Positions 1-17,337 of a stretch of 49,099 nt of DNA are shown piece by piece. The stretch is from an uncultured Candidatus Poseidoniales archaeon. Its GTDB lineage: Archaea; Thermoplasmatota; Poseidoniia; Poseidoniales; Poseidoniaceae. The notes under the pieces are model-generated. The model saw only the letters and a list, made by a program, of their open reading frames with translations, did no database searches and had not been told where the DNA came from. The translations under genes and the position numbers were made by a program. Each line of letters opens with the position of its first letter. Within the stretch, counting starts at the first letter, position 1. Location: the NCBI GenBank assembly GCA_905181785.1, contig CAJIZC010000006.1, forward strand, positions 1-49,099, written 5' to 3'.

Positions 1-281
1 TAATTGAATACAATATGTTATGAAATGAATAAGTGGTTTAGCCCCGTTCACGAGGGGTATTCTGACCACCCCTGTACACAAGCAGTCTGTTGACGAGGAC
101 TTCGAGTGGGTCATGTTGGACCCTAGCGATGAATAGGACCCACTGCAAACCCACCGATTCAGTCAGTTTGAACACAAGGGTTTGAGCAGAGACCTTTGAA
201 TATTCTGTAAAGCGATTATTCCACAATTTATAGAACAATTACCGCCCATAGTTTCAATGCTCACACAAGCGACGACCAATT
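1..281. other. Gene-free AT-rich stretch at the window edge
   Basis: I see no convincing gene here. A 66-codon open frame on the minus strand (38-238) has no recognisable domain and no ribosome binding site. A short inverted repeat, CCCC at 42-45 and GGGG at 54-57, could be the end of a terminator for a gene outside the window. The stretch is clearly richer in A and T than the sequence after 1.3 kb. Confidence 0.5.
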
Positions 282-734
282 ATGTGGGGCACACTTGGCG
301 TAATTTTTCTCATCCTACTGCTTTCCTTCGGAGTTTGGTATTCCATTACCAATTCACTTCCATTTTTAATCGAGAAAGATATGTTTGACGGTGAAACGAA
401 AACATTCGTTTTCAAAAAGAATGGTAAAGAAAAAGCCCTCAAAATAAAAAAGGCTAACGATGCATTGAACTCTATCACCTCGACAAGAACTTCTTCTGGT
501 AGTATTTCCTTTGATCCAAAGCGAGAAGATGGACTTCATCTTGTTTTTTCGATGTGGGAAAGCGGAGGGGTTCATCACATGACAATCATTGAGATGGATG
601 GGGAAAAAGTCATTCAGGAAGATGAATATAATCTTGAAGAAAAAGGTCTCGTGCCTGCTGTTCACAGAATGATAGATCTGATAGAACGAATGAGTTCTAC
701 TTCCTCAGTTTGGGACGAGGTTTCTTCGGATTAG
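282..734 (+). CDS. Small membrane-anchored protein of unknown function
   Basis: This 150-residue protein has one N-terminal membrane segment (about residues 4-25) followed by a soluble region of about 120 residues rich in Lys, Glu and Ser. I recognise no domain family. The likely topology is a single N-terminal anchor with the soluble part outside or inside the membrane; the sequence does not decide which. Base use differs from the rest of the window: it is AT-rich with many AAA, ATT and GAA codons, while most neighbours prefer C or G in third position. This may mark a recently acquired gene. No ribosome binding site is obvious before the ATG. It has no close operon partner. Confidence 0.6.
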   Translation: MWGTLGVIFLILLLSFGVWYSITNSLPFLIEKDMFDGETKTFVFKKNGKEKALKIKKANDALNSITSTRTSSGSISFDPKREDGLHLVFSMWESGGVHHMTIIEMDGEKVIQEDEYNLEEKGLVPAVHRMIDLIERMSSTSSVWDEVSSD

Positions 735-868
735 ACATGGTGAATTATGCTTTAGTATTCACAAGGTGGACCCTCGTACATTCGGGCGACCACAACGGTA
801 GCGTCTGTATCGAGCCACTGCAAGCCCTTGCTATGACTGAAAGACACATACAACGTTTATTCGGTGAC

Positions 869-1150
869 TCACATTGACCAAATAACAGGTCCAGACCTTT
901 GTTCTGGTGGGGCAGTAAAGAACTCTGCAAAGCCACCCATTATTTCTACAACCAAAGGTGCTGCTTTCATGAAACTCTCTTCGGAATCATAGACTGCCAA
1001 ACCCACAGCTTCCCCCTCACTTGTTTGAACGAAGGTTACGGATTGGAGTCCAGGGAGTGCCTGCATTGCATCTCGTAGTTCATCCGCTCTTGCAACAAAA
1101 GCCTCTTTTTGTTCTGGATTGATCTGTGCTATGCTCACTCTGAAGTACAT
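869..1150 (-). CDS. ABM-like dimeric alpha-beta barrel protein
   Basis: This 93-residue protein resembles the antibiotic biosynthesis monooxygenase (ABM) or ferredoxin-like dimeric alpha-beta barrel group. It has an opening strand (YFRVSIAQI), a helix rich in Glu and Arg, then LPGLQSVTFVQT and AVGLAVYDSEESF, the usual order of strands and helices. Such small proteins may be haem-degrading or quinol oxygenases, or have no known activity; the substrate cannot be told here. I chose the ATG at 1150 because the open frame extends upstream without similarity. A GGAGGTGG sequence lies just before this ATG, and a TATA-like box lies about 25 nt upstream of it (1173-1179). If the TATA box is used the transcript would be nearly leaderless, so the two signals do not agree fully. 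Confidence 0.7.
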   Translation of the reverse strand: MYFRVSIAQINPEQKEAFVARADELRDAMQALPGLQSVTFVQTSEGEAVGLAVYDSEESFMKAAPLVVEIMGGFAEFFTAPPEQRSGPVIWSM

Positions 1151-1172
1151 ATTCCCACCTCCAACATCGGGG

Positions 1173-1179
1173 ATATAAT
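1173..1179 (-). promoter_or_regulatory. TATA-like box for the ABM-like gene
   Basis: On the minus strand the sequence reads GATTATATCC. It is centred about 26 nt upstream of the ATG at 1150, the spacing expected for an archaeal promoter whose transcript starts at or next to the start codon. Confidence 0.45.
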
Positions 1180-1359
1180 CTTTAGTCAAAGTTTCAATTG
1201 GTTTCAAGAGTGAGTTGTGAAGCAAAGGGTATCCAACCACACTGGTAAAAAATTGAGAGGCGATTTGGGAACGGAACGGCTGTAATCGGTATTGGGGCGG
1301 TCTAAACCCCTTTTTTGGTCGCCAAAACATTGATATTCTGTAACTTTTTAAATTAAATC

Positions 1360-4149
1360 ATGAACATGCGTACATCCGCACCAAGCCTCTTGCTGACCGC
1401 TCTCCTTTTGGCCGCCCTTGTCCCTGCTGGGCCTGTGGCTGCAACACCAACTGAAGCCTCCGAATTTTACTATGGTGTGGAATACGATTGGACCAGCGTC
1501 GACTCGGATCTCACCAACTTCACCGGCCTCGACATCCCAGAAATGCTCGGAGAAGTGATGGGCGCTGCAGACGATGCAGGACTAAACTTGGTTGTCGGCC
1601 AACTCCTCACCGGTTCTTCGAATGTGTACGTGCACCACTCAGAAGACATCACACCTCAAACCATTCAAGACATGGATGGCGAAGACGTGACCGTTTGGAG
1701 TCGAACCGATGAAGTCACACTTCGTCACGGCGTCTTGTTCGACGGCGTCTTGATGACCGATTGGATGGAACCTGCATCCTTCGGATCCAGCGATGATACA
1801 TCCTTCGACATCGACGCTTCGACAAGCGGCGAACAAGTGTTGACCGTGGACATTGGCTACACCGAATACCTCGATGAAGACTACAACCTTGTCGGAGCGG
1901 ACATGGCGTTCTCGATGGAAGTCTCCGTTTCAAACGACATTGAACTCGATGCTCTTTTCGAAGGTGGCGGTGAACAACTACCAATCGATTTCGACACCGG
2001 AATTTCGATGTCCTATGCCATCACAGAGTCGGCCACACAATGGCGCCTTGGATCCCCAAGCCCAATCTATGTTGAAATGTCGTCCAATGATTTCACCAAC
2101 TGGTACTGCATGGAAGAGTGGGAAATGGACATGGGTATGCAAGCTGAAGTCGACGACGATTCAGTGATCGACCATTGCGGCACGGTGTTCGGTACCTACA
2201 CCGGAGCGCTCGACTACTCCTTTTCCCTCACCGGTATCCCAACCGAAGACATCGGCCTTGATGCAGGTGAACTTGACATTGAATTGTCAGACTCGATCAC
2301 AGAATCTGGAACGTTTGATGACACCATCACTGGTGATGAAATGGAGTTCTCCATGGGCGAATCCCTTACTGTCGATCTCGGCGATGGAGCAGGCCTCACA
2401 ACATCAGTTACTTCATGCACAAACTGCCCACCCGGCAACCCCCTCATGTTCTTCATGATGGGTCAAGTGATTGGCGGAGCCAGCGAATCATTCGCAGAAT
2501 CAGTTGCAGAAGATGTGGCAGATGAACTCAGCGACAGCATCCTTGACATCTTTGAAAGCGATGAAGACGATGGCGAAAATTACGATGAACCTAGCGGCAA
2601 TCAATGGCAATGCGACAGCGGCGACCAATGGATCTACGAATGGGAAGTCAATGACGGCCGCGATGATTGCTACGACGGCTCTGATGAACCGGACATGTCC
2701 GGTTCCTGGGGCGGTTGGAGCGACAACATTTACATGATCGTCGAGTTAGATGACGAAATGCTTTCCTTCGATGAAGACGGTAAGATGTTCATGTGTGACG
2801 ACGGGATGGAAATCAGTTGGGATCAAGTGAACGACTGGTCCAATGATTGTGCAAACAGCGAAGACGAATACGAAGGCCGCGACGTTGATGACATGTTCAC
2901 CTGCGACGACGGCACCGAAATCGAGTGGGATGCAGTCAACGATTACAATTCAGATTGTACTACGGCAGAAGACGAAGGCGCAACGGGCCACTACATGGTC
3001 GAAGCAATTCTCACTGACGCTGTGGGCACCCCCCTCTCTCAGCAGCAAGCCACCATGTGTGATGCAAATGGATGCGCCTTGAACACGGAAGGTAACTTTG
3101 GCAGTTGGTATGTCGAAACAGAAACCCTCACTCCAACTGCATACGGAGAACACATCTACTGTGTGAGCGGTATGGTCACTGATTCGAGTGACGGGACCGT
3201 CGTCATGGAATTCTCAAGCATGTGCAACGACGAGTTCGTCGGTCCAGAAATGAATGGTTGGGTCGGCACAGATGGTATGAACGTCGAATTCGAGGCGAGT
3301 GTCTATGATTGGGAAGAAAATGGCAATGCAACACTCACAGTTTCCATTATCGACCCAAGCGGCAGCGAGTTGTTCCTAGATACGATGCCTATTGATGGCA
3401 CAGAGCAGGATTACAACTTTGCTGATGATGTCGATGTCTTGGAAGTTGGCGAATACTGCGTGGAAATGCACATGACCCAAACAGGGGCATCTGAACCTTA
3501 CCAAAGCTACACAGAGTGCGAACTCGTCGAAGAAGGCCAAGAACCAAGCGACAGAGTCGTTGCCATCGTTGAAGCAATGGCAGAATCCGATCTGGAAGAG
3601 GTTCTCGAACAGTTTGGAATGAACCTTGAAGACCGACTTTCAGATGTTGCACCAACAGAATTCCCATACAATGACGGCATGTGGGCTCCAATGTGGAGTT
3701 CCGAGCACGCTGCAATGGTCGGCGTCGGCGTCTATGCAATGGATGACGATGGTGCCTACATCATGGCGGGCCCAGCAACACAAGGCTACTCTGACGACGC
3801 ACCAGTCAAGATGAGCATCCGATACCTCACAGGCGTTCCAGCGAGCACCGCTGCTGATGAAGCAGAGGATGCAAACAGCATCGAAGACATCGTCAATGTT
3901 GAGGATCACGACCTTGGAGAAATTTCAGAAGCGCTCGAAGAAGCAGGTGTTGATACCAGCGAACTTGACTTCCCAGACTCGTTCACTGCCAATGAGACCG
4001 TCAACGAAGACACCCCGCCACAAACAGCCGAGGAACTTGCAGAAGACGCAGGTCTTGCCGGTGCTTTGCCGGCCTTGTCTCCAATTTCATTGATTGCAGT
4101 GATTTCCCTTGCGGGTATTGTGATTGGACGTCGAACCGAAGAGGCTTGA
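1360..4149 (+). CDS. Large acidic surface protein with LDL-receptor-A-like motifs
   Basis: This 929-residue protein has an N-terminal signal peptide (hydrophobic residues 9-28, ending VAA before TPTEAS) and a C-terminal membrane segment (about 900-922) followed by GRRTEEA. This is the layout of an anchored cell-surface protein. The body is very acidic, with many Asp, Glu, Met and Ser residues. Residues about 416-539 hold three copies of a Cys-containing motif. The best copy (2611-2688) runs Cys, Gly, Ile, Val-Asn-Asp-Gly, Asp-Asp-Cys, Asp-Gly-Ser-Asp-Glu, which matches the calcium-binding half of an LDL receptor class A repeat. Each copy keeps only two of the six usual Cys. The rest is unrecognised, probably beta-rich. 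It is probably transcribed alone; the next gene starts 31 nt downstream. Binding of calcium or of a polymer is possible but not shown. Confidence 0.75.
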   Translation: MNMRTSAPSLLLTALLLAALVPAGPVAATPTEASEFYYGVEYDWTSVDSDLTNFTGLDIPEMLGEVMGAADDAGLNLVVGQLLTGSSNVYVHHSEDITPQTIQDMDGEDVTVWSRTDEVTLRHGVLFDGVLMTDWMEPASFGSSDDTSFDIDASTSGEQVLTVDIGYTEYLDEDYNLVGADMAFSMEVSVSNDIELDALFEGGGEQLPIDFDTGISMSYAITESATQWRLGSPSPIYVEMSSNDFTNWYCMEEWEMDMGMQAEVDDDSVIDHCGTVFGTYTGALDYSFSLTGIPTEDIGLDAGELDIELSDSITESGTFDDTITGDEMEFSMGESLTVDLGDGAGLTTSVTSCTNCPPGNPLMFFMMGQVIGGASESFAESVAEDVADELSDSILDIFESDEDDGENYDEPSGNQWQCDSGDQWIYEWEVNDGRDDCYDGSDEPDMSGSWGGWSDNIYMIVELDDEMLSFDEDGKMFMCDDGMEISWDQVNDWSNDCANSEDEYEGRDVDDMFTCDDGTEIEWDAVNDYNSDCTTAEDEGATGHYMVEAILTDAVGTPLSQQQATMCDANGCALNTEGNFGSWYVETETLTPTAYGEHIYCVSGMVTDSSDGTVVMEFSSMCNDEFVGPEMNGWVGTDGMNVEFEASVYDWEENGNATLTVSIIDPSGSELFLDTMPIDGTEQDYNFADDVDVLEVGEYCVEMHMTQTGASEPYQSYTECELVEEGQEPSDRVVAIVEAMAESDLEEVLEQFGMNLEDRLSDVAPTEFPYNDGMWAPMWSSEHAAMVGVGVYAMDDDGAYIMAGPATQGYSDDAPVKMSIRYLTGVPASTAADEAEDANSIEDIVNVEDHDLGEISEALEEAGVDTSELDFPDSFTANETVNEDTPPQTAEELAEDAGLAGALPALSPISLIAVISLAGIVIGRRTEEA
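2605..2976 (+). repeat. Three LDLa-like half repeats within the surface protein
   Basis: The copies start at the Cys codons 2611, 2794 and 2902 and end at the Asp-Glu codons 2683-2688, 2863-2868 and 2971-2976. The shared pattern is Cys-Asp-x-Gly, an Ile six to eight residues later, Val-Asn-Asp, Asp-Cys, then an acidic Asp-Glu end. The copies are diverged at the DNA level, so this is an old duplication. Confidence 0.65.
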
Positions 4150-4180
4150 ATCGAGCCCTCAAGTACGATGAACGGCAGGC

Positions 4181-5089
4181 ATGGGCATGTCACTACGTCC
4201 GGCACCCTCTCATGTGGGTACCGCCGTACGTGGTGTTGCGACCATCTTGATTGTGATTCATATCTTGATGTCAGCATGGCTTGTTGTCCAATTTGATGGG
4301 CGATACACGGAAGGCAGACCTTCCCCGACCAACATTAAGGCAATCATCGCCGTCGATGACGACCAAACACTGATCGATATCAAGATGGAGAATTCCACTT
4401 CCTTTGTGCTTTACATGCTGGTTCGTGACTATGATGAACCAAAACAAAACGAGACAACACCATCAGAGCCATCGGAACAATCCTCTTCTTCAGACGAGGA
4501 TGAACCGCCGAAAGACCGCCTTAATCAAGCGCGATTGTTCACCAAGGCATGCCTAAGTTTGCTTGTCATCTCAGAGCTCGTTATGCTGTTTGGTCTTCGC
4601 CTACGAGCCACACTGCGAGGGGTCGTTTGGTCCAGCGTTTTGTTGTGCTTCCTGGTCCTCCTTCCTGGGGCGTACTTGAGCGACTTGGCTGGAGGCGAGG
4701 AAGGGGACGAGGAAAGCAAATCGTCGTCGAACGACAGCCTTGCCAATGAAACATTTGTCGCGCAAACAGAAGACGGGGCGATGGTCCACGGCACAAGTTC
4801 TGTCGATTTCTCCCTTGCCCCACTGGGCGTGCACGTGGACATGATGTTCAACGGGTACGACCTTGGCTTGGTTGAAAAGTCCAATCAATCAACCGTCAGA
4901 GCAGAAGTCCCGGCCGAGGGGAGCAAAGACGCTTCATCTTGGGTTCAATTTGAATCAAGGCTAACGGCAAAAGCAGGAAAAAACATACAATCGCTGTTTA
5001 TTCTTCCAGTGCTGTGGCTTGCCTTCCCAGCCGCAAGCCTGCGCCAAAAGACCGAACCCGAAGATCACCCTTCGGATGAAGAGGCGTGA
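4181..5089 (+). CDS. Multi-pass membrane protein, unknown
   Basis: This 302-residue protein has four likely membrane segments: about 18-37, 121-139, 147-166 and 269-284. Between the first two is a soluble part ending in a low-complexity acidic and Ser-rich linker (Ser-Glu-Pro and SSSSDEDEPP). Between the third and fourth is an outer domain of about 100 residues. The C-terminal tail is charged. No family is recognised. The gene follows the surface protein gene by 31 nt on the same strand and may be co-transcribed. However, AAGTAC lies 20 nt before this ATG, the same spacing as GAGTAC before two other starts in the window, so it may have its own promoter. The second in-frame Met (4187) is an alternative start. 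Confidence 0.65.
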   Translation: MGMSLRPAPSHVGTAVRGVATILIVIHILMSAWLVVQFDGRYTEGRPSPTNIKAIIAVDDDQTLIDIKMENSTSFVLYMLVRDYDEPKQNETTPSEPSEQSSSSDEDEPPKDRLNQARLFTKACLSLLVISELVMLFGLRLRATLRGVVWSSVLLCFLVLLPGAYLSDLAGGEEGDEESKSSSNDSLANETFVAQTEDGAMVHGTSSVDFSLAPLGVHVDMMFNGYDLGLVEKSNQSTVRAEVPAEGSKDASSWVQFESRLTAKAGKNIQSLFILPVLWLAFPAASLRQKTEPEDHPSDEEA

Positions 5090-5094
5090 CCCTC

Positions 5095-5688
5095 TCATTG
5101 AGCCTCTCGAGCCTTTCGACACACTTCCACGAAGTTGTCGAACATCTCTTTTCCAAATTCAGAATCGTTGACTTCCGGATGGAATTGCAGTCCGAAGCGA
5201 TCGCCTTTCTCATTCTCCATGCCTTGAACTTGGCAAGAATCGCTGCTTGCAGTGATGAAAAATCCATCAGGGACTTCGTGAACCTCGTCGTTATGAGATT
5301 CCCATACAGTTTGTGATTCTCCGGTTCCGGCAAAAATCATGCCTCCGCCATCATGAAGTTTGATTTGCATAGCACCGAATTCTGGTTCGGGAGATTCTCG
5401 AGCATCGCCGCCGTAGAACCTCGCCATGAATTGATGGCCAGCGCATATGCCGAGCACGGGCACATCGAGTTCGAGGTAAGCCCCACAGTTTCCAAGTTCG
5501 CCCGTGAGGCCGACGCGTGCTGCACCGCCCGATAGAATAATTCCATCAACCGCCCGAAGCTCTTCGACTGGCGTTGTGTTTTCGATGATTTTCGTGTCCA
5601 CTTTGAGGTAACGCAACATGCGCCACTCGCGGTGCGTCCACTGTCCGCCATTGTCAACTACGTCGATGATGAGAGGTCGTTCGTCCAT
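5095..5688 (-). CDS. guaA: GMP synthase, glutaminase subunit A
   Basis: This is the separate class I glutamine amidotransferase subunit of archaeal GMP synthase. It makes ammonia from glutamine for the ATP-pyrophosphatase subunit, which converts XMP to GMP in the cytoplasm. The 197-residue length fits the archaeal family (about 185-200). The N-terminus has the family pattern IIDVVDNGGQWTHR. The nucleophile elbow GICAGHQ places the catalytic Cys at residue 82, and HPEV near residue 170 supplies the catalytic His and Glu. The ATG at 5688 was chosen over upstream starts because homology begins there. The synthetase subunit is not in the window. The gene diverges from the FAD oxidoreductase across about 40 nt, so their promoters must overlap. 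It converges with the upstream membrane protein gene, five bases apart. Confidence 0.93.
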   Translation of the reverse strand: MDERPLIIDVVDNGGQWTHREWRMLRYLKVDTKIIENTTPVEELRAVDGIILSGGAARVGLTGELGNCGAYLELDVPVLGICAGHQFMARFYGGDARESPEPEFGAMQIKLHDGGGMIFAGTGESQTVWESHNDEVHEVPDGFFITASSDSCQVQGMENEKGDRFGLQFHPEVNDSEFGKEMFDNFVEVCRKAREAQ

Positions 5689-5729
5689 TGCACATCGCCT
5701 ATGATTTCTGCTGTGTAAGTCGAACAACC

Positions 5730-6926
5730 ATGAACATGCCGCACCGATTGAACCGTGAATGGGTTGATGATGGTATGCCAACTGGGCGTTGTATGGTCCG
5801 AGTCCTCGTTGTTGGTGGAGGGCTTGCAGGATTATCAGCGGCCCTCGAAGCCACCACTGCTGGCCACCATGTCGTGGCGCTGGAACGCAGCTCGAGAATT
5901 GGCGGTAGAGCAACAAGCCAGCCGCTCGATGGATTTGCCATCGGCTATGGCCCGCATCTTTTATTGAAAAACGGGCCACTTCACTCCATTGCAAAGCGGC
6001 TCAGTCGAGTGCGCCTTGCGGTGAGTCCACTGCGACCTCATCGGACCGAAGTTCTCGGCCACGGAATGATTCGGCCAACTGGGGATCTGCATCAAGCATC
6101 GCTCCACAAACGGGCGCTGAAGGCAAACGACACCGGTCATCCAATTGTGCAAGGAGCCAACCTCTTGGCCAACTGGGGCACCAACAACACCGCTCGTATG
6201 CAAGCGCTCAACAAGAGCCAATTGCTCGTGAGCAACGAAGGCTGGGCGGGTCTGGTCGGTCGCATGGCTGCAGCGCTGGATGAAGTGGGTGTGTTCATCG
6301 AATGCGGTTTAGAAGTCACTCGAATTGAACAGGGTACCGTCCACCTCTCAAACGGGCGAACCATCGAAACAGATGTGATCGTTCTTGCATGCGGCGCAAA
6401 AAAAGCGCGACGCCTCCTTTCGGATATCGATTCGACAGCGACAGAACAGCACTTCAGTCGCTTGAAACGCATAACAGCGTCAACCATCGAAGTTGCATTG
6501 GATGCGAAACCATTTGGTGACCGCCACGCCCTTGTCGACGTTGAACGGCAAATGAGCATCCTCGATTACATCGGAATCCAACCTAAACTTGGACCGAACG
6601 GCTCGCACCTTGCTGCCATTGCGGTTGGCGGTTTAGCCCATGACGCAGGGGCGACTCGCTTTGATTCAGCAGAACAACGCTTGGCGGCTCTCGAGGCCTT
6701 CTTGGACGAACGGGCGCTTGGCTGGCGAAATCACATTGTGCAAGATGGGCGCCAAGCCAACATCACGGTTCATGACGCAGGGGCCTTCAAAATCAACCCG
6801 CTTGCCTTCAAAGACCACGGGGTTGTGCTGGCTGGCGCATGGGTCGAAAACGAACATGAATTGGCAGACGGGGCCGTGTCTTCTGGCAGAAAAGCCGGTC
6901 GCCTGATTTCAAAAATCACGGGTTGA
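5730..6926 (+). CDS. FAD-dependent oxidoreductase, amine oxidase / phytoene desaturase type
   Basis: This protein of about 398 residues has an N-terminal Rossmann dinucleotide-binding motif, VLVVGGGLAGLSAA, then ALERSSRIGGRA, the signature of the amine oxidase and carotenoid desaturase superfamily. The C-terminal FAD-binding end, VVLAGAWVENEHELADGAVSSG, is also present. The substrate is unknown; isoprenoid desaturases and protoporphyrinogen oxidase belong to the same superfamily. Three starts are possible: 5730, 5775 and 5793. I chose 5730 because it lies in an AACCATG context seen at several other starts here. The 5793 start sits right at the Rossmann strand and is the conservative choice. 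The next gene, xth, follows after 32 nt on the same strand. Confidence 0.8.
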   Translation: MNMPHRLNREWVDDGMPTGRCMVRVLVVGGGLAGLSAALEATTAGHHVVALERSSRIGGRATSQPLDGFAIGYGPHLLLKNGPLHSIAKRLSRVRLAVSPLRPHRTEVLGHGMIRPTGDLHQASLHKRALKANDTGHPIVQGANLLANWGTNNTARMQALNKSQLLVSNEGWAGLVGRMAAALDEVGVFIECGLEVTRIEQGTVHLSNGRTIETDVIVLACGAKKARRLLSDIDSTATEQHFSRLKRITASTIEVALDAKPFGDRHALVDVERQMSILDYIGIQPKLGPNGSHLAAIAVGGLAHDAGATRFDSAEQRLAALEAFLDERALGWRNHIVQDGRQANITVHDAGAFKINPLAFKDHGVVLAGAWVENEHELADGAVSSGRKAGRLISKITG

Positions 6927-6958
6927 ACACTTATTCACCGGCGGGCCAACCGCCATTC

Positions 6959-7738
6959 ATGCGCTTCGTCTCATGGAACGTCAACGGGATCAGAGCCGCC
7001 ATCAGAAAGGGCATCGACGGCTATTTTGATTCCATTGATGCGGATGTTTGGATGCTCCAAGAAGTCCGCTGTTTACCAGAACAATTGCCCAAAGGATGGA
7101 CGTGGCCAGAAGGGTACGATGTTCACCTCCATTCCGCACAGAAGAAAGGTTACTCGGGTGTGACAACCCTCAGCCGACTTCCCATCACAAGCACCTCGAC
7201 AGGGATGGGCGGTCGCATCGATGAAAACGACACTGAAGGCCGAATTATTGTCTCGAACCATGAAGGCTTCACCTGCATCAACACCTACCTGCCAAGCGGC
7301 TCCAATAAAGAAGAACGCCAAGCGTTCAAGGAGGGCTGGATGGACGAATGGCGCACCTTCCTGAAGCCGTACCTTGACCTTTCAACCCCGGTCATCGTGT
7401 GCGGTGATCTCAACATTGCCCACACTGAAGATGACATTTGGAACCCAAAGGGGAATGCAAAATCCAGTGGCTTTCTTCCACATGAGCGAGCGTGGTTCAC
7501 CGACTTGTTGAGCGATGGCTGGCGCGATGTGTTCCGCGAACATGTTGGCGAAGGGGAGAAGATCTTCTCATGGTGGTCAAACCGAGGCCAAGCGAGAGCC
7601 AAAGACCGCGGATGGCGCATTGATTACTTCCTGCTCAACGAGGCAGCAGCGGCACGCTTTGAGTCAATTCGAATCGAGCGCCAAGGCGGGCTTGATGTTT
7701 CGGATCACGCACCGGTGATTTTGGATTTGAAGGATTGA
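6959..7738 (+). CDS. xth: Exonuclease III-type AP endonuclease
   Basis: This DNA repair enzyme of the exonuclease III / APE1 family cuts DNA at abasic sites. Its 259 residues match the family length. It starts with FVSWNVNGIRAA, has the metal ligand Glu in MLQEVR (residue 35), the catalytic GDLNIAH motif, and the C-terminal SDHAPV motif with the essential Asp-His. WRIDYFLLNE precedes the end, as is usual. All key residues seen in the family are present. The start at 6959 is set by homology; upstream in-frame codons add no recognisable sequence. The stop codon lies directly against the stop of pcc1 on the other strand, with no base between them. Confidence 0.94.
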   Translation: MRFVSWNVNGIRAAIRKGIDGYFDSIDADVWMLQEVRCLPEQLPKGWTWPEGYDVHLHSAQKKGYSGVTTLSRLPITSTSTGMGGRIDENDTEGRIIVSNHEGFTCINTYLPSGSNKEERQAFKEGWMDEWRTFLKPYLDLSTPVIVCGDLNIAHTEDDIWNPKGNAKSSGFLPHERAWFTDLLSDGWRDVFREHVGEGEKIFSWWSNRGQARAKDRGWRIDYFLLNEAAAARFESIRIERQGGLDVSDHAPVILDLKD

Positions 7739-7957
7739 TTATTCGCCTTCGATGTCCGCAAGCGAGACCATCAACTCGTCGACAATGTCCCGCAGTGTCT
7801 GCAATGAAGTGTGGTGAACTTGGACCGTGAGATGGGCTTTCCCTTCCCGCTCTGAGAGTTTGGCTTTGCAGTGCGGGCGCGAGGCAGCGGCAAGATAGAC
7901 GACGCCAAGCGCAGGGTCGCCTGACCATTCCACCGTGACGTGGTGCCCTTCGACCAT
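7739..7957 (-). CDS. pcc1: Probable KEOPS complex subunit Pcc1
   Basis: The 72-residue protein fits the small dimerising subunit Pcc1 of KEOPS, which helps make the t6A modification of tRNAs that read ANN codons. Evidence is the size and the C-terminal pattern: a strand (AHLTVQVHH), then SLQTLRDIVDELMVSLADIE, which matches the family's Asp/Thr-Leu-x-Ala-Leu-Arg helix. The N-terminal strand VEGHHVTVEWSGD also fits. The match is by pattern, so the call is likely but not certain. The gene diverges from hflX across 48 nt and ends against xth. Other KEOPS genes are not in the window. Confidence 0.65.
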   Translation of the reverse strand: MVEGHHVTVEWSGDPALGVVYLAAASRPHCKAKLSEREGKAHLTVQVHHTSLQTLRDIVDELMVSLADIEGE

Positions 7958-8005
7958 GAGGTGAGGTTGAGGTGGACTCTTATGACAATGACTCAACGCC
8001 CAACC

Positions 8006-9412
8006 ATGGCCAAGGATGACGCTGACCCGTTTATCTTGGCAGGAACAGGAGGCGTGACGCTTGGCGAAGCGCGAACCAACCACGAAGGAAGGAAAGCCAT
8101 CCTTTTGTTGCGAGGCTCAGAAGACGCCTCCGAATTCATTGCTCTGGTTGGCACCATGGGCATTCAGATTGTCGAAACGCTGCACCAACCGGGCAATGAA
8201 GACCCTCGCGGCTACTTTGGAAAAGGTCGACTGCAAGACGTTTCTGACGAACTTGCCTCGAGGCCAAAGGGGCATCCGTGGGTTGGTGTGGATCTGGTTT
8301 TGCTTCATACCAACGCCACGCCCCGGCAACTGGTCGGCGTCAGCGACGGCGTCAAGATCGAAGTATGGGACCGCGTTCGCTTGCTTTTGTCGCTGTTCAC
8401 TTCACATGCCGCTTCAATTGAGGCGCGTACGCAGGTTCGAATTGCTCGGCTGCAGTCGGATCGAACCGTGCTGCGGGAACTTGCCAACCGCTCCACAACC
8501 GGCGAGCGAGCGGGTTATGGTGGCGGCGGTATCACGGCTCTGGAAGCTTCAATCGCCAACATCAATCGAGAATTAACGCACCTGAGAAAGCGGCAACAAA
8601 AGCATGCAGGGGCCCAATCCGAGCGCCGCAGACAACGCTCCCGCAGTGGGGCAATGACGGTTGGTTTGGCGGGCTACACAAACGCCGGAAAATCGAGTCT
8701 GTTTCTCAACCTGTCAGGAAAAGAAGTCCTCGTCGAAGACAAGTTGTTTTCAACGCTTGAAACCACACTCGGCCGAATGGAAGCAAGCCCTCGGGTGCTG
8801 CTTGCCGACACGATTGGTTTCATCGATTCACTGCCTTCAGCGACGCTTGACGCCTTTCGAGCAACTCTTGCTGAGGCATTGGAAGCCGATCTTCTCTTGA
8901 TTTTGGCTGATGCGAGCGATCCCCCGATGGAACTCGAACGCAAACTCTTCACTTCTCGCCAAGAAGTCTTTACTCGCTTTTACGGCGAAGAAATCGATGA
9001 CGAATTCCCCTGGCAGCGGGACGCTGACTCGCTTAAGCACCACGTGCTGACCGTCCTCACCAAGGTTGATCAGGCAACTGAGCAACAAGTCGAGGAAGCC
9101 ATAGCCACAGTGGGCGCGCTTGGCTTGCCGGAGCCATATGTCATATCCGCTCACAGCGGCAAGGGGATGCAGGAACTCAAAAATGCAATTCTCTTTCATC
9201 TGTTTGGCCCTCAAGTTGAATTGATTTTGTTGCCCCCATCAGAACACAGCAAGCGGGGCATTGAAGGCTATGTTTCAGACGTGTACGATGCGGGGCTCGT
9301 CACCGAAACGGACCGTCAAGCCGACGGACTGATCGAGATGACCGTTTGGATCCATGAACAAGCCCTCTCGAGGCTTCTGGCCCACTCTGACGGGCGCATT
9401 GAGGTCAAGTAG
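8006..9412 (+). CDS. hflX: GTPase HflX
   Basis: HflX is a ribosome-associated GTPase that splits stalled or stressed ribosomes. The protein (468 residues) has the HflX N-terminal domain, including ETLHQPGNEDPRGYFGKGRL (strand exchange and glycine-rich region), a coiled-coil helical linker (about 150-215), then the G domain. G1 is GYTNAGKS (residues 223-230), G3 is DTIGF, and G4 is TKVD. A C-terminal domain of about 100 residues follows. The start at 8006 has the AACCATG context; 7982 and 7988 are in-frame alternatives. The length is slightly above the bacterial average. Confidence 0.93.
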   Translation: MAKDDADPFILAGTGGVTLGEARTNHEGRKAILLLRGSEDASEFIALVGTMGIQIVETLHQPGNEDPRGYFGKGRLQDVSDELASRPKGHPWVGVDLVLLHTNATPRQLVGVSDGVKIEVWDRVRLLLSLFTSHAASIEARTQVRIARLQSDRTVLRELANRSTTGERAGYGGGGITALEASIANINRELTHLRKRQQKHAGAQSERRRQRSRSGAMTVGLAGYTNAGKSSLFLNLSGKEVLVEDKLFSTLETTLGRMEASPRVLLADTIGFIDSLPSATLDAFRATLAEALEADLLLILADASDPPMELERKLFTSRQEVFTRFYGEEIDDEFPWQRDADSLKHHVLTVLTKVDQATEQQVEEAIATVGALGLPEPYVISAHSGKGMQELKNAILFHLFGPQVELILLPPSEHSKRGIEGYVSDVYDAGLVTETDRQADGLIEMTVWIHEQALSRLLAHSDGRIEVK

Positions 9413-9432
9413 GACCGCTCCATCCCACAACC

Positions 9433-10362
9433 ATGGGCGAAGAGGGAGAAGAGGCGCCCTTTGAACCGGTTGAAGAAAAAGACGACTACCTCGACGAACT
9501 GACAGGTTTACAAGAGCCTCAGTCAGCAATGATGTTCTCGTCATCAGAAGCGGTGTTGACCATTGAGGACCCAAACCTCCATCCGATGGGAAAAGCCATC
9601 GCCGTTTTTGTCATCTTCATTTGCTTGCTCGGGTTTCTCAACGGGCTTGATTACGCCTCAGCCGAGGACGGTCTTGTCCGGCCTGACGAATTTGTCTATC
9701 GGTTATCGTTGAACGCTCCCGATGAATCGGCCACATTCCGCGGTACGGTTTCCGACCACAACGGGGATGCCTTGGTCAACGCTACGGTGTATGTCTCTTG
9801 GGATGAAAATGGAATTTGGAATTATTCAGAAGTGTTCACTGATTCATCCGGTGCCTTTGAGTTTGAACATTTGGATCCGGGCTTGGCTCGCGTCGATATT
9901 ATCGTCGAGCGGGATGGAAAGCGCGACGTGCTTGCCAACAGAGTGCTGCTTTCACCGCCTGCGATGATTGAACCAATTGGTTTTACACAAATCGATTTCA
10001 CAGTGCCTTCAGAGGATGAATTCGCTCAAGCGCCGTGTTCAAACGGGGCTGAATCGTGTGAGATTCGAAACATCGATTTGACCCCGGGCCAAATGGAACA
10101 TCCGCTGATGGACCCTGGAGCAGCAGGCATCTACATCACCGTTGGATTCGGTTTCATGGGTCTTGCTCTGATCGCTGGTGGGTTCACCATCTGGGCGCTG
10201 AAGAGCGGTTCATTGCTCGTGCTGAGAACGGCAGCAGCCCTGTCCTTTTTCGGCATGGGCCACTATTACTCAGCCTGCTTGTTCGGCCTTGTTGCCTTCG
10301 GTCTAACCTTTGCAGTTCCACGCCCAAGGATCATCCTCACCGACCCTCGGCACGATGCCTAA
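9433..10362 (+). CDS. Membrane protein with carboxypeptidase-regulatory-like domain
   Basis: This 309-residue protein has an acidic N-terminal tail (residues 1-50), a membrane segment (about 54-72), an outer beta-sandwich domain (about 98-185), and a pair of C-terminal hydrophobic segments (about 233-257 and 264-296). The outer domain has the pattern ATFRGTVSDHNGDALVNATV followed by a Ser-Gly-Ala-Phe-Glu-Phe turn and a Leu-Asp-Pro-Gly turn. These are typical of the carboxypeptidase regulatory-like (CarboxypepD_reg) fold found in many surface proteins. Enzyme activity is not expected. The gene starts 20 nt after hflX with an AACCATG context. Confidence 0.7.
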   Translation: MGEEGEEAPFEPVEEKDDYLDELTGLQEPQSAMMFSSSEAVLTIEDPNLHPMGKAIAVFVIFICLLGFLNGLDYASAEDGLVRPDEFVYRLSLNAPDESATFRGTVSDHNGDALVNATVYVSWDENGIWNYSEVFTDSSGAFEFEHLDPGLARVDIIVERDGKRDVLANRVLLSPPAMIEPIGFTQIDFTVPSEDEFAQAPCSNGAESCEIRNIDLTPGQMEHPLMDPGAAGIYITVGFGFMGLALIAGGFTIWALKSGSLLVLRTAAALSFFGMGHYYSACLFGLVAFGLTFAVPRPRIILTDPRHDA

Positions 10363-10423
10363 CATCGCTTCTTCGACGCAAGTCGACCGTCCAAGTTAAG
10401 GCGACGCAGCATCACAGCCAACC

Positions 10424-11503
10424 ATGGACCTCCTCGCCTCTACGTGGATGACCCGTTCGCTCGGTGAAGCGGTTGCGTCCGTCGCTTTAGAAGCGGATGG
10501 CTCCGTCATTGTCGGGGGCTGGGATGGGGCGCTCAAACGCTGGAACAACCAGGGTGATTTGCTCTGGGCGACCAAACTCAACGATCGCGTCAATGAAGTC
10601 CAACGTCACGAAGATTGCTTGGTGGCAACCGCTGGCCTCCATGTTGTCTGCCTTGACCACGAGACTGGAGAAACACGTTGGTCACACGCTCTTGAAGGAA
10701 GTGCAGACGCTGTACTCATTCAGGGTGGCATTGTCTATGCCGTATCTTCCGTCTATGACATCGAGCATAATGACTTCATTGAATCAGCCGTTTGGTGCTA
10801 CGACCTTGACGGAGCAGAACGCTGGGTTCAACGCATGGACGAACGCCCTTGGACCATCATGTCATGCGAAGGCCAAGTGTGGCTTGGCCTTGGCCGGCCG
10901 AAGTGTGGTTTGGCCAAAGTAAATCCAGATGGAAGCATCCTTCACCTCCCGGGTCCCGTCGACTCCCCCGTGACCAGCGGTGCGTTCAACTCAACCAAAC
11001 TCTTGTTTGGCCACGCCGACGGAACGGTTTCCGACCGCTCTTCCAACGTTGTTCATGCCCTTCCAAGCGGCGTCGATTCTCTTGTGTGCCTCGAAAACGG
11101 GGCCGTTGTCGCTGAAGAAACGGGCGATCTTCATGCCTTTGCCAAGGGTGGAAAATCCATGTGGACACAGAAAGGGGATGCTATTGAATCGCATTGCGAT
11201 GGCTTCGAAGTCAACGGTAAACCCACCCACTGGATCGCCCGCTGGTCTGGCGTCAGTGGAACGCTTGTCGTCGCCGATCAGAGCAACGGAGCAACCCTTG
11301 CTGAAGCCCTCTCTTTGCATGTTAGATTTCTCAAATCCGCTGGTAATCGCGTGATAGCAGGGTGTGAAAACGGGGATGTTCACGTCTGGGAAATGGCTGT
11401 GCTTGAACGGCGAATGTCGGCCAAAAAGAGCGACGCTCATGCACCCGAAAACCCAAGGAAATCGGCATTACAAGATAAGCTTCGAAAGTTACGAGAACGC
11501 TGA
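10424..11503 (+). CDS. PQQ/WD-type beta-propeller protein
   Basis: This 359-residue protein has repeated units of about 40 residues that look like propeller blades: GSVIVGGWDGALKRWNNQG, LVATAGLHVVCLDHETGETR, LFGHADGTVSDRS, AVVAEETGDLHAF and AGCENGDVHVW. This places it with the quinoprotein/WD40-like propellers. No signal peptide or membrane segment is seen, so it is likely cytoplasmic and a scaffold rather than a dehydrogenase. The last 40 residues are charged and Lys/Arg-rich, ending in a helix. The ATG has the AACCATG context and a TATA-like AGTTAAGG lies about 23-30 nt upstream. Confidence 0.7.
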   Translation: MDLLASTWMTRSLGEAVASVALEADGSVIVGGWDGALKRWNNQGDLLWATKLNDRVNEVQRHEDCLVATAGLHVVCLDHETGETRWSHALEGSADAVLIQGGIVYAVSSVYDIEHNDFIESAVWCYDLDGAERWVQRMDERPWTIMSCEGQVWLGLGRPKCGLAKVNPDGSILHLPGPVDSPVTSGAFNSTKLLFGHADGTVSDRSSNVVHALPSGVDSLVCLENGAVVAEETGDLHAFAKGGKSMWTQKGDAIESHCDGFEVNGKPTHWIARWSGVSGTLVVADQSNGATLAEALSLHVRFLKSAGNRVIAGCENGDVHVWEMAVLERRMSAKKSDAHAPENPRKSALQDKLRKLRER

Positions 11504-13770: not shown

Positions 13771-15366
13771 TCAAATTTTCAGGTTTGCTTGGCGCGCCAA
13801 GAGAACGATGCGCATGCTGTGCTCAACCATAGCAGCGTTTGCCCATGCCTGATCCAAGTCGCGACCGACGGCGTATGCACCTCTTCCACGAACCACAACG
13901 CATCGCATGCCACCTTGTTGAAGTGCTTCTGCGATTTGTCGCAAGAAATCATCAGGGTTTGCGTCGTCAGGGTCAACGATGACAATTTTGCCAATGTTGC
14001 GCTTGCCAACATCGTCGATAGGTGCAACGACGACAAGGTCCTTCTCGCAACTTGCAGCGGTCGTGAAAGCGCCATGCGAATGAATCACTGCGGCGGGTCC
14101 ACCTGTGGCTAAACTTGCGGAAGCAAGCACCACTTCGAGGGTTCGCCAATCATCGGGTGCGAACTGAGGCGCATCCCCGCCAAGCGGAGCAGCGCACAAA
14201 CCACGTTCGTCCAATCGTGGCAACATGGTCATGTTGCGTGTCGAAATCATAACGCCTGGTTGATCGGGGTGCAGCATTGCAATGGTACCCATCGTTGCGC
14301 GAATCAGTTGTTCTCGGTCAAGTTGACGCGCAAGGCGAGCAAAATCTCCGACGATATGCGCTCCAATCACCATGTCCGGGAGGACAATAGGTGGCATTGG
14401 AGGCGTTTCCAATTCTTCGATTACTTCAGCAGCACCAGCCATGGATTGACGCAAGCGTGCCACCTCGGCAGACAGTCGCGCAACTTCAGCTTCTGCGGCG
14501 TCGGTGCGCGAAGAACCACCCTCGGGCGAACCGATTGGCATGTTCACGGTCTTTGTTTCTGGCATTTGCTGCATAATGTCGGGAACATCGTGTTCTTCCT
14601 CCGCTTCAGCAGGTGGCTCGGAAACAGCAGTGACGCTCGGCGGTGGGCCAGATGGCGAGGATGGTGGTGGGCCAGATGGCGATGATGGCGGTGGGCCAGA
14701 TGGCGATGATGGCGGTGGGCCAGATGGCGAGGATGGCGGTGGGCCAGATGGCGATTCCGCAGGTGCCTCTTCGTCCTGCTCAGCCAGATCATCTGCCGGT
14801 TCTTCAGCTGGAGGGTTTGCAGGAGGGGCTGATGGAGGGCTGGAAGGGGATTCACTTGGCGGTGGGCCGCTCGGTGAAGAGGGGAGCGTACTTTCTGCTG
14901 CCTCTTCCACTGCGCTTTCTTCCTGGTCTGGTGCAGCATCGGCTGAAGGGCCGCTTGGCGGGCCTGATGGCGGACTGGAGGGGGCCTTAGATGGAGGACC
15001 GCTTGGTGGGCCGCTTGGCGGGCCTGATGGTGGACTTGAGGGTGCTTTGGATGGAGGACCGCTTGGTGGGCCGCTCGGCGGGCCTGATGGTGAACCAGAA
15101 GGCGCATCGGAGGCAAGATCGGGAATGACTTCCTCTTCAGGAGACTCCGCTTCCACTGGGGCCTCTACGGGTTCTGGCGTTGCTTGAGGGGCTTCCTCTG
15201 CTTCGGAAGCCTCAACGGGTTCATTTTCAACTTCCAAAGCCATTTCTTCTTCTGGTGCGACTTGAAGTCCACTCACATCACCAAAAGCAGCATCGAGCAT
15301 GTTGCCGACCTTTGCTAACTTTTCGTCATCGCGTGTCTGTTCAACAGATGTTTTTTTTCCCGGCAT
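13771..15366 (-). CDS. Pro-rich protein with C-terminal class II aldolase/adducin-like domain
   Basis: This 531-residue protein has two parts. Residues about 1-310 are acidic and low in complexity. They include two tandem repeat arrays of Ser, Gly and Pro (units SGPPPSSP and a 20-residue Ser-Gly-Pro-Pro unit) and end in a predicted coiled coil (about 288-310). Residues about 325-531 match the class II aldolase/adducin fold. The His429-Ser-His431 pair fits two zinc ligands, and the end VGRDLDQAW with the following helix matches the family. The third ligand, normally in an Asn-His-Gly motif, is Arg495 (RGRG). A normal aldolase reaction is therefore doubtful; a structural or binding role, as in adducin, is possible. 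No signal peptide is seen. The gene shares its upstream region with tRNA-Asp. Confidence 0.72.
   Translation of the reverse strand: MPGKKTSVEQTRDDEKLAKVGNMLDAAFGDVSGLQVAPEEEMALEVENEPVEASEAEEAPQATPEPVEAPVEAESPEEEVIPDLASDAPSGSPSGPPSGPPSGPPSKAPSSPPSGPPSGPPSGPPSKAPSSPPSGPPSGPSADAAPDQEESAVEEAAESTLPSSPSGPPPSESPSSPPSAPPANPPAEEPADDLAEQDEEAPAESPSGPPPSSPSGPPPSSPSGPPPSSPSGPPPSSPSGPPPSVTAVSEPPAEAEEEHDVPDIMQQMPETKTVNMPIGSPEGGSSRTDAAEAEVARLSAEVARLRQSMAGAAEVIEELETPPMPPIVLPDMVIGAHIVGDFARLARQLDREQLIRATMGTIAMLHPDQPGVMISTRNMTMLPRLDERGLCAAPLGGDAPQFAPDDWRTLEVVLASASLATGGPAAVIHSHGAFTTAASCEKDLVVVAPIDDVGKRNIGKIVIVDPDDANPDDFLRQIAEALQQGGMRCVVVRGRGAYAVGRDLDQAWANAAMVEHSMRIVLLARQANLKI
14642..14755 (-). repeat. 24-bp coding tandem repeat, four full units and one partial
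   Basis: The units start at 14642, 14666, 14690, 14714 and 14738 (partial). They are almost identical, differing mainly by GAGGAT versus GATGAT and one final base. They encode SGPPPSSP. The near identity suggests recent expansion or homogenisation and a site of likely length variation between strains. Confidence 0.9.
14949..15094 (-). repeat. 60-bp coding tandem repeat, two full units and one partial
   Basis: The period is 60 bp (14951-15010, 15011-15070, then partial), with only a few base differences between units. It encodes a 20-residue unit built from Ser-Gly-Pro-Pro repeats followed by Ser-Lys-Ala-Pro-Ser-Ser-Pro-Pro. It is separate from the 24-bp array 200 bp away. Confidence 0.85.
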
Positions 15367-15596: not shown

Positions 15597-16556
15597 ATGG
15601 TCAAGATGCCTAAACTCGGTGTTTCAGCGTGTTTACTGGGTCAAAAGGTTCGTTCCAATGGCGAGGCAGCAGAGTTCAGGAGCCTAACACGCTCTTGGTC
15701 TCACCACTTTGAGATGATTGGGGTATGCCCTGAAGTTGGCATTGGCATGGGGACTCCACGCCCGACCACTCGGCTCGTCAAAAAGGATGGAAAAATCAAC
15801 CTCCTCAATTCCGAAACCGATGAAAACTTCACTCAGCAAATGGTGGAATACGCCCAATTGCAATCTGATGCGCTGATCCAATCCGGAATTAGCGGTTTTG
15901 TGTTCAAGAACGACTCACCGAGTTGTGGACTTGAACGTGTGGAAGTCCACAGGGATGGGCAACTCCAATCAAGAGACGAGGCCATGGGGGTGTTCGCCAT
16001 GGTGTTCACCACCCTTAACCCGCACCTCCCTGTCATCGATGAAGCGCGGCTTAGCGACCCAGTCCAAGCTGAACACTTCCTCGCCAGGGTCGAATTCCTT
16101 TCGCTGTGGCTCGAAGAAGGCCGTAATGGATGGACTGCAGACAAGTTGATGCAGTTTCACAACACCAACAAATTGTTTTTATTGAGCCGTTCCCCCAGCG
16201 CTAAACGTTCGCTGGGGCGTCTTATTGCCAACGGCTTTGACCGTGGAGACCACCCCGAAAATGTCGCTCTCGAATACATGACTTCCGCCCAACAATCCCT
16301 CAACGTGCTCTCAAAGCCCGGCCCAATTGCTCACGCTATGGAGCGCGTTCTTGGCCGTGTGAGTTCGAAATTGTCAAGCAGAGAACGCCAAGAAACGCTT
16401 GATGTCATTCACGAATATCGCCGAGGTTCGCTGCCCCGCTCTGCCCCGCTCACCTTGCTTCGCCGTCTTGTGCGTCGCTGCGGGATGGAAAATGAAACAC
16501 ATTCACGGTTCATCTCACCCACCCCGCTCAGGCTTTCCCTCATGGCTAAAGTTTGA
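15597..16556 (+). CDS. DUF523-DUF1722 protein (TudS-type thiouracil desulfidase)
   Basis: This 319-residue protein is a fusion of DUF523 and DUF1722. DUF523 is the TudS family, in which characterised members use a [4Fe-4S] cluster to remove sulfur from 2-thiouracil. Three conserved Cys are visible: SACLLG (near residue 12), GVCPEVGIGMGTPR (near residue 45) and NDSPSCG (near residue 107). The DUF1722 half includes LMQFHNTNKLFLLSRSP. Both halves are common as one protein in bacteria. The function of DUF1722 is unknown. A second Met at 15606 is possible, but the TATA spacing favours 15597. The gene ends in its own terminator, so it is probably a single transcription unit, although it lies next to the ubiquitin-like gene. 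Confidence 0.85.
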   Translation: MVKMPKLGVSACLLGQKVRSNGEAAEFRSLTRSWSHHFEMIGVCPEVGIGMGTPRPTTRLVKKDGKINLLNSETDENFTQQMVEYAQLQSDALIQSGISGFVFKNDSPSCGLERVEVHRDGQLQSRDEAMGVFAMVFTTLNPHLPVIDEARLSDPVQAEHFLARVEFLSLWLEEGRNGWTADKLMQFHNTNKLFLLSRSPSAKRSLGRLIANGFDRGDHPENVALEYMTSAQQSLNVLSKPGPIAHAMERVLGRVSSKLSSRERQETLDVIHEYRRGSLPRSAPLTLLRRLVRRCGMENETHSRFISPTPLRLSLMAKV

Positions 16557-16650: not shown

Positions 16651-17100
16651 ATGAGTGAAATTACGTACCAAGTGAAGATAGCAGATGCGACAGGCCATAC
16701 CGTCGCGCAAATGACCAAACCGGAGATCGTTGCCAAGGCAAACGCCTCCCAAGGAACATGGGTGTTCGTCAACGACCGCCTTGTTTCAGCAAGCGAACTC
16801 GCAGCCATGACGTTTGCAGATTCGGACCAGTTCAAGGTGATGCCAGGTCTCGTTGGCGGCGACGACAACGAAGACGAACCAACTTACGCCGTTGAAATCG
16901 CTGACAAGACCGGTCACAGCGTGGTTGAGATGACTCAAGGCGAGCTCGTCGAAAAGGCAACTGCAACCAACGCTGCATGGGTTTTTGTTGACAACACCAT
17001 GGTCGCAGCAACCGATCTCGAAGCGATGGACCTCAGCAGCGCTGAGAAAATCCGAATGGTCCCACAACTGGTGGGCGGCGCCCAAGAAGCATCGTGTTAA
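16651..17100 (+). CDS. Tandem ubiquitin-like (beta-grasp) di-domain protein with Gly-Gly ends
   Basis: This 149-residue protein has two head-to-tail copies of a 67-residue domain (residues 4-70 and 77-143). They align without gaps at about 31 of 67 identical positions and are joined by the linker DDNEDE. Each copy ends Leu-Val-Gly-Gly (Gly69-Gly70 and Gly142-Gly143); the second is followed by the tail AQEASC. The predicted order matches the ubiquitin/SAMP/ThiS beta-grasp: strand (YQVKIADATG), strand (HTVAQMT), helix, strand (WVFVNDRLV), short turn, final strand. The last 22 residues of copy 1 line up gaplessly with the last 22 of ubiquitin, sharing Leu and the Gly-Gly. The fold is inferred from pattern. 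If correct, the protein resembles a polyubiquitin precursor that needs cleavage. A GAGGAT site sets the start. rpo12 follows 87 nt downstream. No E1-like or JAMM gene is in the window. Confidence 0.7.
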   Translation: MSEITYQVKIADATGHTVAQMTKPEIVAKANASQGTWVFVNDRLVSASELAAMTFADSDQFKVMPGLVGGDDNEDEPTYAVEIADKTGHSVVEMTQGELVEKATATNAAWVFVDNTMVAATDLEAMDLSSAEKIRMVPQLVGGAQEASC

Positions 17101-17187: not shown

Positions 17188-17337
17188 ATGGTTGAACTCG
17201 TTGATTACAAATGTGCAGTTTGCGGCAGTCTCGAATCGTTCCACCGTGAGCGAAACGGAATCAGTTGTAAGGCATGCGGATCCCGCATTTTCATGAAACT
17301 CCGACGCAACGGGACCAAGCGTCTCGTCGCAGAGTGA
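17188..17337 (+). CDS. rpo12: RNA polymerase subunit Rpo12 (RpoP)
   Basis: This 49-residue zinc-ribbon subunit of archaeal RNA polymerase (RPB12/RpoP) helps assemble the Rpo3-Rpo10 platform. The zinc ligands are Cys9-x-x-Cys12 and Cys27-x-x-Cys30, followed by the typical basic end (GSRIFMKLRRNGTKRLVAE). The size fits the family. The ATG at 17188 is set by the conserved start of the ribbon; the frame is open upstream without similarity. It follows the tandem ubiquitin-like gene on the same strand and may be read through from it. Confidence 0.9.
   Translation: MVELVDYKCAVCGSLESFHRERNGISCKACGSRIFMKLRRNGTKRLVAE

Follow-up and report, generated by a model that had tools for sequence, protein, structure and literature searches.

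The question raised by positions 16651..17100 (forward strand) of the DNA analysed here, a 49,099-nucleotide stretch from an uncultured Candidatus Poseidoniales archaeon (in the following, the window), is whether an archaeon encodes a precursor of fused ubiquitin-like (Ubl) modifiers in the manner of a polyubiquitin gene. The window is contig C6 of a 1.66 Mb assembly that is 80% complete. The gene is an intact open reading frame (ATG at 16651, stop codon at 17098-17100) encoding 149 residues, and consists of Ubl unit 1 (16660..16860, +; 67 residues, ending in PGLVGG), an acidic linker DDNEDE (16861..16878, +), Ubl unit 2 (16879..17079, +; 67 residues, ending in PQLVGG), and a C-terminal tail AQEASC (17080..17097, +) that extends past the last Gly-Gly and is predicted to be removed. 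Both units align without gaps with 31 of 67 identical residues (46%), and the local alignment score of 173 compares with a best score of 45 among 2000 shuffled sequences. A first-pass annotation, made from the nucleotide sequence alone, had described two gapless copies of 67 residues with about 31 identities, each ending in LVGG and followed by DDNEDE and AQEASC, respectively; the alignment and the translation agree with this description in all points.

We consider it probable that the gene encodes a poly-Ubl precursor that is cut by a JAMM protease, activated by an E1-like enzyme and used to modify proteins; the gene, its repeats, the Gly conservation, the intact E1 and JAMM motifs, and the co-occurrence, fusion and operon linkage in relatives are observed and the fold is predicted, whereas cleavage, activation, conjugation, the part of a further cysteine family and the targets are inferred. 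The proposal of the first-pass annotation, a polyubiquitin-like precursor in need of a protease, is thereby strengthened: the unit has a predicted beta-grasp fold, the C-terminal Gly is constant among relatives, relatives contain one to four units, some tandem genes carry signs of conversion between units, and genes for a JAMM protein and an E1-like enzyme track the gene through the order.

The ubiquitin-like nature of the unit is unproven by the lone sequence; together with its relatives the case is good. Compared with ubiquitin, the single units give no significant similarity (47 and 168 of 500 shuffles reach the respective scores), and over the last 22 residues unit 1 agrees with ubiquitin at just 4 positions and unit 2 at 5. 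The correspondence to the ubiquitin C-terminus claimed in the first-pass annotation is recovered only by means of the family profile, with Gly-Gly in register. A profile of 47 diverse units ranks ubiquitin chains first among the PDB sequences, and aligns its positions 30-67 with residues 39-76 of ubiquitin, Gly-Gly over Gly-Gly. The E-values range from 1e-17 to 4e-8 for concatemers, low because the repeats of these long chains are summed, and from 0.04 (variants) to 0.49 (wild-type ubiquitin) for single chains. A comparison of the unit profile with ubiquitin using hhalign results in a P-value of 7.7e-4, compared with 0.34 for reversed ubiquitin.

The structural model points in the same direction. 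Based on 26 aligned units from the window and related loci, AlphaFold2 models unit 1 with a mean predicted local distance difference test score (pLDDT) of 86.3 (78-86 across five models) and a predicted template modelling score of 0.73. The elements are strand 6-10, strand 17-21, helix 23-32, strand 37-40, strand 43-45, helix 47-52 and strand 61-64. The predicted order, beta-beta-alpha-beta-beta-helix-beta, is that of the ubiquitin beta-grasp. Among the best 50 of the 564 Foldseek matches at E<=10, Ubl folds and SUMO fusions prevail, with MTH1743, SUMO, MoaD, ThiS and ISG15 as examples. Pfam matches to the 47 units are weak and remain under the cut-offs, with ThiS found in two of the 47 (best E-value 0.017). 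The NCBIfam matches of the precursor (SocA with 1.1e-4, others at 0.025 or above) are all far under cut-off and were taken as chance.

By its relatives the genome belongs to the Poseidoniales (Marine Group II). Of the 193 genomes of this order, 94 have a match to the precursor at E<=0.01. Similarity to the window protein extends over 16 loci with 97% to 48% identity, the named ones being metagenome-assembled genomes (MAGs) of Candidatus Poseidoniales, Poseidoniaceae, Poseidonia and Euryarchaeota. The 94 distinct proteins, some of which are cut by contig ends and 6 of which run on into a longer C-terminal part, contain one unit (38 proteins), two units (38), three units (17) or four units (1), with 3-11 residues between profile units. 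The last residue is Gly in all of the 155 distinct units (126 Gly-Gly, 28 Ala-Gly and one Phe-Gly). It is kept in 75 of 75 internal units (61 Gly-Gly, 14 Ala-Gly), in 56 of 56 terminal units (42 and 14), and in 38 of 38 single units (34 and 3, as well as the one Phe-Gly). The tail past this constant Gly is variable and usually short (one residue in 40, two in 14 and three in 14 of the 94 proteins). A tail is present in 90 of the 94 as well as in the window protein; the four tail-less cases end at a stop codon (L100, L101) or at a contig end (L029, L076).

In 8 of the 55 distinct tandem genes, the last two units show no protein difference over their C-terminal halves, where the DNA identity is 0.94-1.00, compared with a DNA identity of 0.61-0.83 for the N-terminal halves. 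Seven of these genes belong to genus g2, one is found in a named Poseidonia MAG (L042). Judged by these identities, the pattern looks like recent conversion between units, as in polyubiquitin genes. In one further gene (L053) the last two units agree fully in protein over both halves.

These patterns also bear on the possibility that the protein acts as an uncut di-Ubl modifier similar to ISG15, with the last Gly-Gly used and the inner one inert. Such a modifier would fit the occurrence of ISG15 among the Foldseek matches, the linkers of 3-11 residues, and the separate conservation of both units within the window's clade, where unit 1 is 76-82% identical between species and 39-49% identical to unit 2. 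However, the inner Gly is kept in every internal unit with the same Gly-Gly/Ala-Gly pattern as in terminal units, single-unit relatives exist, and it is exactly the Gly-bearing halves that are homogenised in the 8 genes. We therefore regard an uncut modifier as distinctly unlikely.

A precursor that is cut and attached requires partners. The first-pass annotation had stated that the window lacks genes for an activating enzyme and a protease, and for the ThiF family and the JAMM family considered here this is correct: matches are found only on contigs C5 and C29 of this genome and none on C6, hence both components are present in the genome, outside the window. The genome harbours two ThiF-family genes, a UbaA/MoeB-type gene with a rhodanese match (395-codon frame) and a short E1-like gene (C29:46073-46717, -; Pfam ThiF 2.4e-19, over cut-off). 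The latter is followed, with overlapping frames, by an open reading frame with the JAMM motif HTHPGFDAYWSGTD. Across the family, the JAMM motif E..HxH..SxxD (E..H[ST]H x7 S xx D, with x6 or x7 spacing) is invariant in 18 of 18 sequences. Matches of the JAMM profile include AMSH, STAMBP and an Rpn11-like protein, with E-values of 0.003-0.03 and mostly over about 30 residues around the motif; for the AMSH-type matches the E-value is 0.003 and the length about 32 residues.

GxGGIG together with two Asp, one Lys and one Cys is retained throughout the 48 aligned rows of the E1 subfamily. The invariant Cys aligns with that of the UbaA/MoeB-type protein of the same genome and with that of a PRTRC ThiF, and may be the catalytic residue. 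The nearest named family is PRTRC_ThiF (NCBIfam TIGR03736, 7.9e-17, 61 bits versus a cut-off of 144.75 bits); hhalign relates E1 and PRTRC ThiF with a P-value of 1e-16 and the Cys aligned, and PRTRC_ThiF accounts for four of the best five of the 132 plasmid records that match the E1. Across 389 genomes of the phylum, all matches of the E1 profile at E<=1.3e-55 lie within the order, the best match outside having an E-value of 3.5e-19. A search of viral contigs resulted in 55 E1 and 9 JAMM pattern matches, none of which is a relative according to tblastn; the precursor has no match among phages.

Physical linkage of the components varies. The search of related genomes suggested in the first-pass annotation, for the same di-domain together with linked E1 and JAMM genes, results in tandem genes and, in some relatives, a fused or adjacent E1. 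Ubl-Ubl-E1 fusions are found in three genomes (G124, G095 and G027), and several genomes of family f2 with single Ubl units encode E1 and JAMM in one frame, with JAMM behind E1. By reading of the match positions, Ubl and E1 are fused or within about 5 kb of each other in 25 of the 85 genomes that have both. On one contig (L101, G076:C198, positions 1-8000) two Ubl genes, one E1 and three frames of the cysteine family described below form a dense cluster.

The components co-occur across the 193 genomes, of which those listed are 70-97% complete. Using strict counts, the Ubl is found in 90 genomes, the E1 in 92 (E<1e-20; 140 at 1e-3, the rest being much weaker) and JAMM in 95. All three are found together in 83 genomes, at least one in 100, and none in 93; genus g4 contributes no genome to the positives. 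Pairwise Fisher tests for Ubl, E1 and JAMM result in values of 1e-36 to 1e-46. When all 94 Ubl genomes are kept, Ubl and E1 occur together in 85 and apart in 9 and 7 (2.7e-35).

The components suggest the following course of events. The gene would be translated into a precursor of two fused ubiquitin-like modifiers. The JAMM protein from the unlinked E1-JAMM operon would cut after each Gly-Gly, resulting in two tags with bare Gly-Gly ends. The small E1-like enzyme would then adenylate the Gly and take over the tag on its invariant cysteine, probably as a thioester, and the tag would be passed on to proteins, perhaps helped by the cysteine family. The JAMM protein may also take the tag off. For the processing step a precedent exists in CsRpn11, an archaeal JAMM enzyme that processes a Ubl precursor exactly after Gly-Gly (PMC6043591).

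The same three parts might serve a different purpose. As a sulfur carrier, the Gly-Gly end would be freed by JAMM and activated by E1, and the resulting thiocarboxylate would donate sulfur in a biosynthetic pathway, as in published JAB/E1/Ubl siderophore operons. The composition is that of JAB/E1/ThiS-like operons (table in PMC1779556), the Foldseek matches include a sulfurtransferase chain as well as MoaD and ThiS, a radical-SAM gene (recognised by eye) adjoins the fusion locus of G124 and G027, and archaeal Urm1 has both jobs (PMC11354881). However, inspection of the loci by eye revealed no sulfur-pathway gene that constantly adjoins the system, and the short E1 frame has no rhodanese match. 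Likewise, the genome already encodes the UbaA/MoeB-type E1 with its rhodanese match together with a separate ThiS-family protein of 83 residues, which ends in PPVSGG, exactly at the Gly-Gly; the poly-Ubl set is therefore a second system. Moreover, sulfur carriers are not known to occur in tandem copies. Use as a sulfur carrier is hence quite improbable in our view. By sequence, the unit differs from SAMP, ThiS and MoaD carriers in having no ThiS match over the cut-off and a tail past the Gly-Gly.

A further component is indicated by the E1-JAMM operon of this genome, which continues with a protein of about 80 residues (no useful match, the best being 0.02 to a designed protein) and a protein of 319 residues. 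The family of the latter is fast-changing; many members have CxxC pairs close to the N-terminus (by eye), and one Cys is shared by all 38 domain rows. It is found in 105 of the 193 genomes, including each of the 90 genomes with a strict Ubl match and 7 among the 93 that lack Ubl, E1 and JAMM, with one to five matches per genome, several paralogues, and frames of 261 to 1034 residues. Examples with CxxC pairs and the invariant Cys are L129 6324..7280 (-), L195 2541..4955 (+) and L200 1663..4764 (-). A member fused to the Ubl in genome G093 was detected with an E-value of 0.004 at first, and with 2.6e-21 once the profile included this member. Comparisons with Pfam and PDB result in weak and scattered matches only. 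The motif I-C-I-D ... P-x-G-D had prompted a comparison with E2 enzymes. The searches of PDB and Pfam and the hhalign comparisons with E2 sequences and one Prok-E2_D protein gave no support for this relationship and no scores better than those of reversed controls. The family is, as we infer, the likeliest candidate for a helper in transfer or target choice.

The genomic surroundings of the Ubl gene are conserved in part. Directly 3' of the gene lies rpoP, encoding RNA polymerase subunit P (17188..17337, +; Pfam RPAB4 over cut-off), a neighbour conserved in family f1. Across 106 Ubl loci, with duplicates and cut loci included, rpoP is found in 73, and in 76 of 76 Ubl-rpoP pairs both genes are on the same strand, with gaps of 35-683 bp. 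In genus g18, TFB-like and CYTH-like proteins, both under the Pfam cut-offs, are encoded beside the Ubl. TFB-like or zinc-ribbon genes also adjoin the Ubl-E1-JAMM operons of L103, L105, L106 (genus g18), L107, L119 and L126; the Pfam TFIIB zinc-binding model matches, below cut-off, two of three such genes tested. An archaeal Ubl system acting on transcription factors has a precedent in TBP2 (PMC4895103). The association of Ubl and transcription is a lead, and not evidence.

Upstream in the window, the Ubl gene is directly preceded by a 2-thiouracil desulfurase-DUF1722 fusion (15597..16556, +), and a 531-residue protein with long repeats of the Ser-Gly-Pro-Pro type and an acidic N-terminus is encoded at 13771..15366 (-). 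In other genomes, the radical-SAM gene mentioned above, recognised by eye from its Cys-rich motif CxxxCxYC, adjoins the Ubl-Ubl-E1/JAMM locus of G124 and G027 (L107 9283..10395, -; L109 10882..11949, -). A T7-like single-subunit RNA polymerase (PF00940) is encoded in 10 of the 193 genomes. Four of these 10 have a divergent copy of the Ubl no more than about 4 kb away from the polymerase: L112 (G130:C20) 3377..10481 (-), L113 (G176:C6), L107 (G124:C4) 1426..9280 (+) and L221 (G181:C27) 1472..7885 (+). In a fifth polymerase genome (L223) a cysteine-family-like fragment is next after the polymerase (by eye). These loci are possibly those of a virus or mobile element with its own Ubl system.

The divergent copies beside T7-like polymerases in a few genomes would also be in accordance with an antiviral conjugation system similar to Bil or CBASS, as would the resemblance of the E1 to PADLOC E1-E2 models (best 1.8e-12) and, weakly, to BilD (2.9e-4). 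However, none of the Ubl, JAMM and cysteine proteins tested is matched by a PADLOC model, no E2 or effector gene was recognised, and the place of the main gene beside rpoP is fixed in family f1, although the latter is compatible with defence all the same. We consider an antiviral role very improbable. A broader proposal extends the preferred interpretation, in which JAMM cuts the poly-Ubl precursor and E1 activates the units, to a full Poseidoniales tagging system, consisting of the poly-Ubl, the PRTRC-like E1, JAMM, and a new zinc-knuckle family of several paralogues, with an invariant cysteine, that would do the work of both E2 and E3, and aimed at the transcription machinery. The aim is suggested because rpoP lies beside the main gene, TFB-like genes lie beside others and the T7-like polymerase beside mobile ones. 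We regard the full system as rather unlikely.

We note several points that weigh against a cleaved and conjugated poly-Ubl precursor. The first-pass annotation had held that homologues without conserved Gly-Gly ends would contradict it: the last Gly is indeed constant, yet some clades have Ala-Gly instead of Gly-Gly in all units and one relative has Phe-Gly, such that the expectation holds for the final residue throughout and for the Gly before it in part. A sign of half-gene conversion is unclear in most of the tandem genes (47 of 55 genes, that is, L053 and the remaining 46). In the window's clade the diverged units keep separate identities across species and hence may not be interchangeable. 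Pfam has no model for the unit, its matches to the precursor are under cut-off throughout (best 0.0075), and Foldseek finds nothing at E<=0.001 (best 0.023), with TM-scores over the query of 0.39-0.63 among the best 50 of 564 matches. Pfam Prok-JAB scores the JAMM protein under cut-off. The Fisher values ignore shared ancestry, and the strict counts include exceptions: Ubl without E1 in 5 genomes, Ubl without JAMM in 5, E1 without Ubl in 7, and JAMM without Ubl in 10. In genome G000 the Ubl gene is unlinked from E1-JAMM. UQ_con was over cut-off in none of 10 genomes searched for an E2 (one weak match, 0.225), and no E3 was recognised.

Similar to eukaryotic polyubiquitin genes, the precursors have head-to-tail units that each end in a C-terminal Gly-Gly, a short extra tail, a varying copy number and, in some genes, homogenised units. 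Unlike in eukaryotes, the units have 67 residues, are separated by linkers of 3-11 residues, and are accompanied by no recognised E2 or E3; in the window they are 46% identical rather than identical or nearly so. The bacterial poly-Ubl family (Multi_ubiq in Pfam) is absent from the matches of the 47 units at E<=0.1. Operons that combine polyUbl, E1 and JAB were described for bacteria in 2006 (row 6e, Iyer et al. 2006, PMC1779556) and share one to three Ubl units, E1, JAB and a metal-binding protein with the system described here. However, JAB is N-terminal to E1 in these operons and behind E1 in the fused frames of family f2, and the present genes are archaeal and, in family f1, located beside rpoP. 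The PRTRC cassette of bacterial plasmids (by our reading of row 6d of PMC1779556) contains the ThiF that is the nearest named relative of the E1, whereas its Prok_Ub and Prok-E2_D have no detectable counterpart among the Poseidoniales Ubl and cysteine partner; no ParB gene was recognised by eye in the loci read. Caldiarchaeum subterraneum likewise has an archaeal Ubl precursor with a tail past Gly-Gly that is cut by JAMM (PMC6043591), but of a single unit, and the operon there also contains genes for E2 and RING proteins (PMC11354881). The SAMP/UbaA/JAMM system of Haloferax also combines an archaeal Ubl, E1 and JAMM without E2; in contrast, the genome studied here has the tailless ThiS-family protein ending at Gly-Gly as a separate protein beside the poly-Ubl.

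Marine Group II is among the commonest archaea of the surface ocean. No description of a ubiquitin-like conjugation system for Poseidoniales or Marine Group II was found in the literature searches made here; for one Marine Group II single-cell genome UCH and RING genes are reported and, in the part of that report available, not a poly-Ubl gene. The polyUbl operons of bacteria and an archaeal ubiquitin precursor with one unit (PMC6043591) are already published; to these the Poseidoniales poly-Ubl set adds a variant with one unnamed component. An archaeal poly-Ubl gene, in some cases with homogenised units, would extend the polyubiquitin gene plan beyond its known occurrence in eukaryotes and bacterial operons. 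Ubl, E1 and JAMM form a three-part set that is small enough to be rebuilt in vitro. The cysteine family shares its phylogenetic profile with the system, and may represent a class of transfer enzymes as yet unknown, for which it is a concrete candidate.
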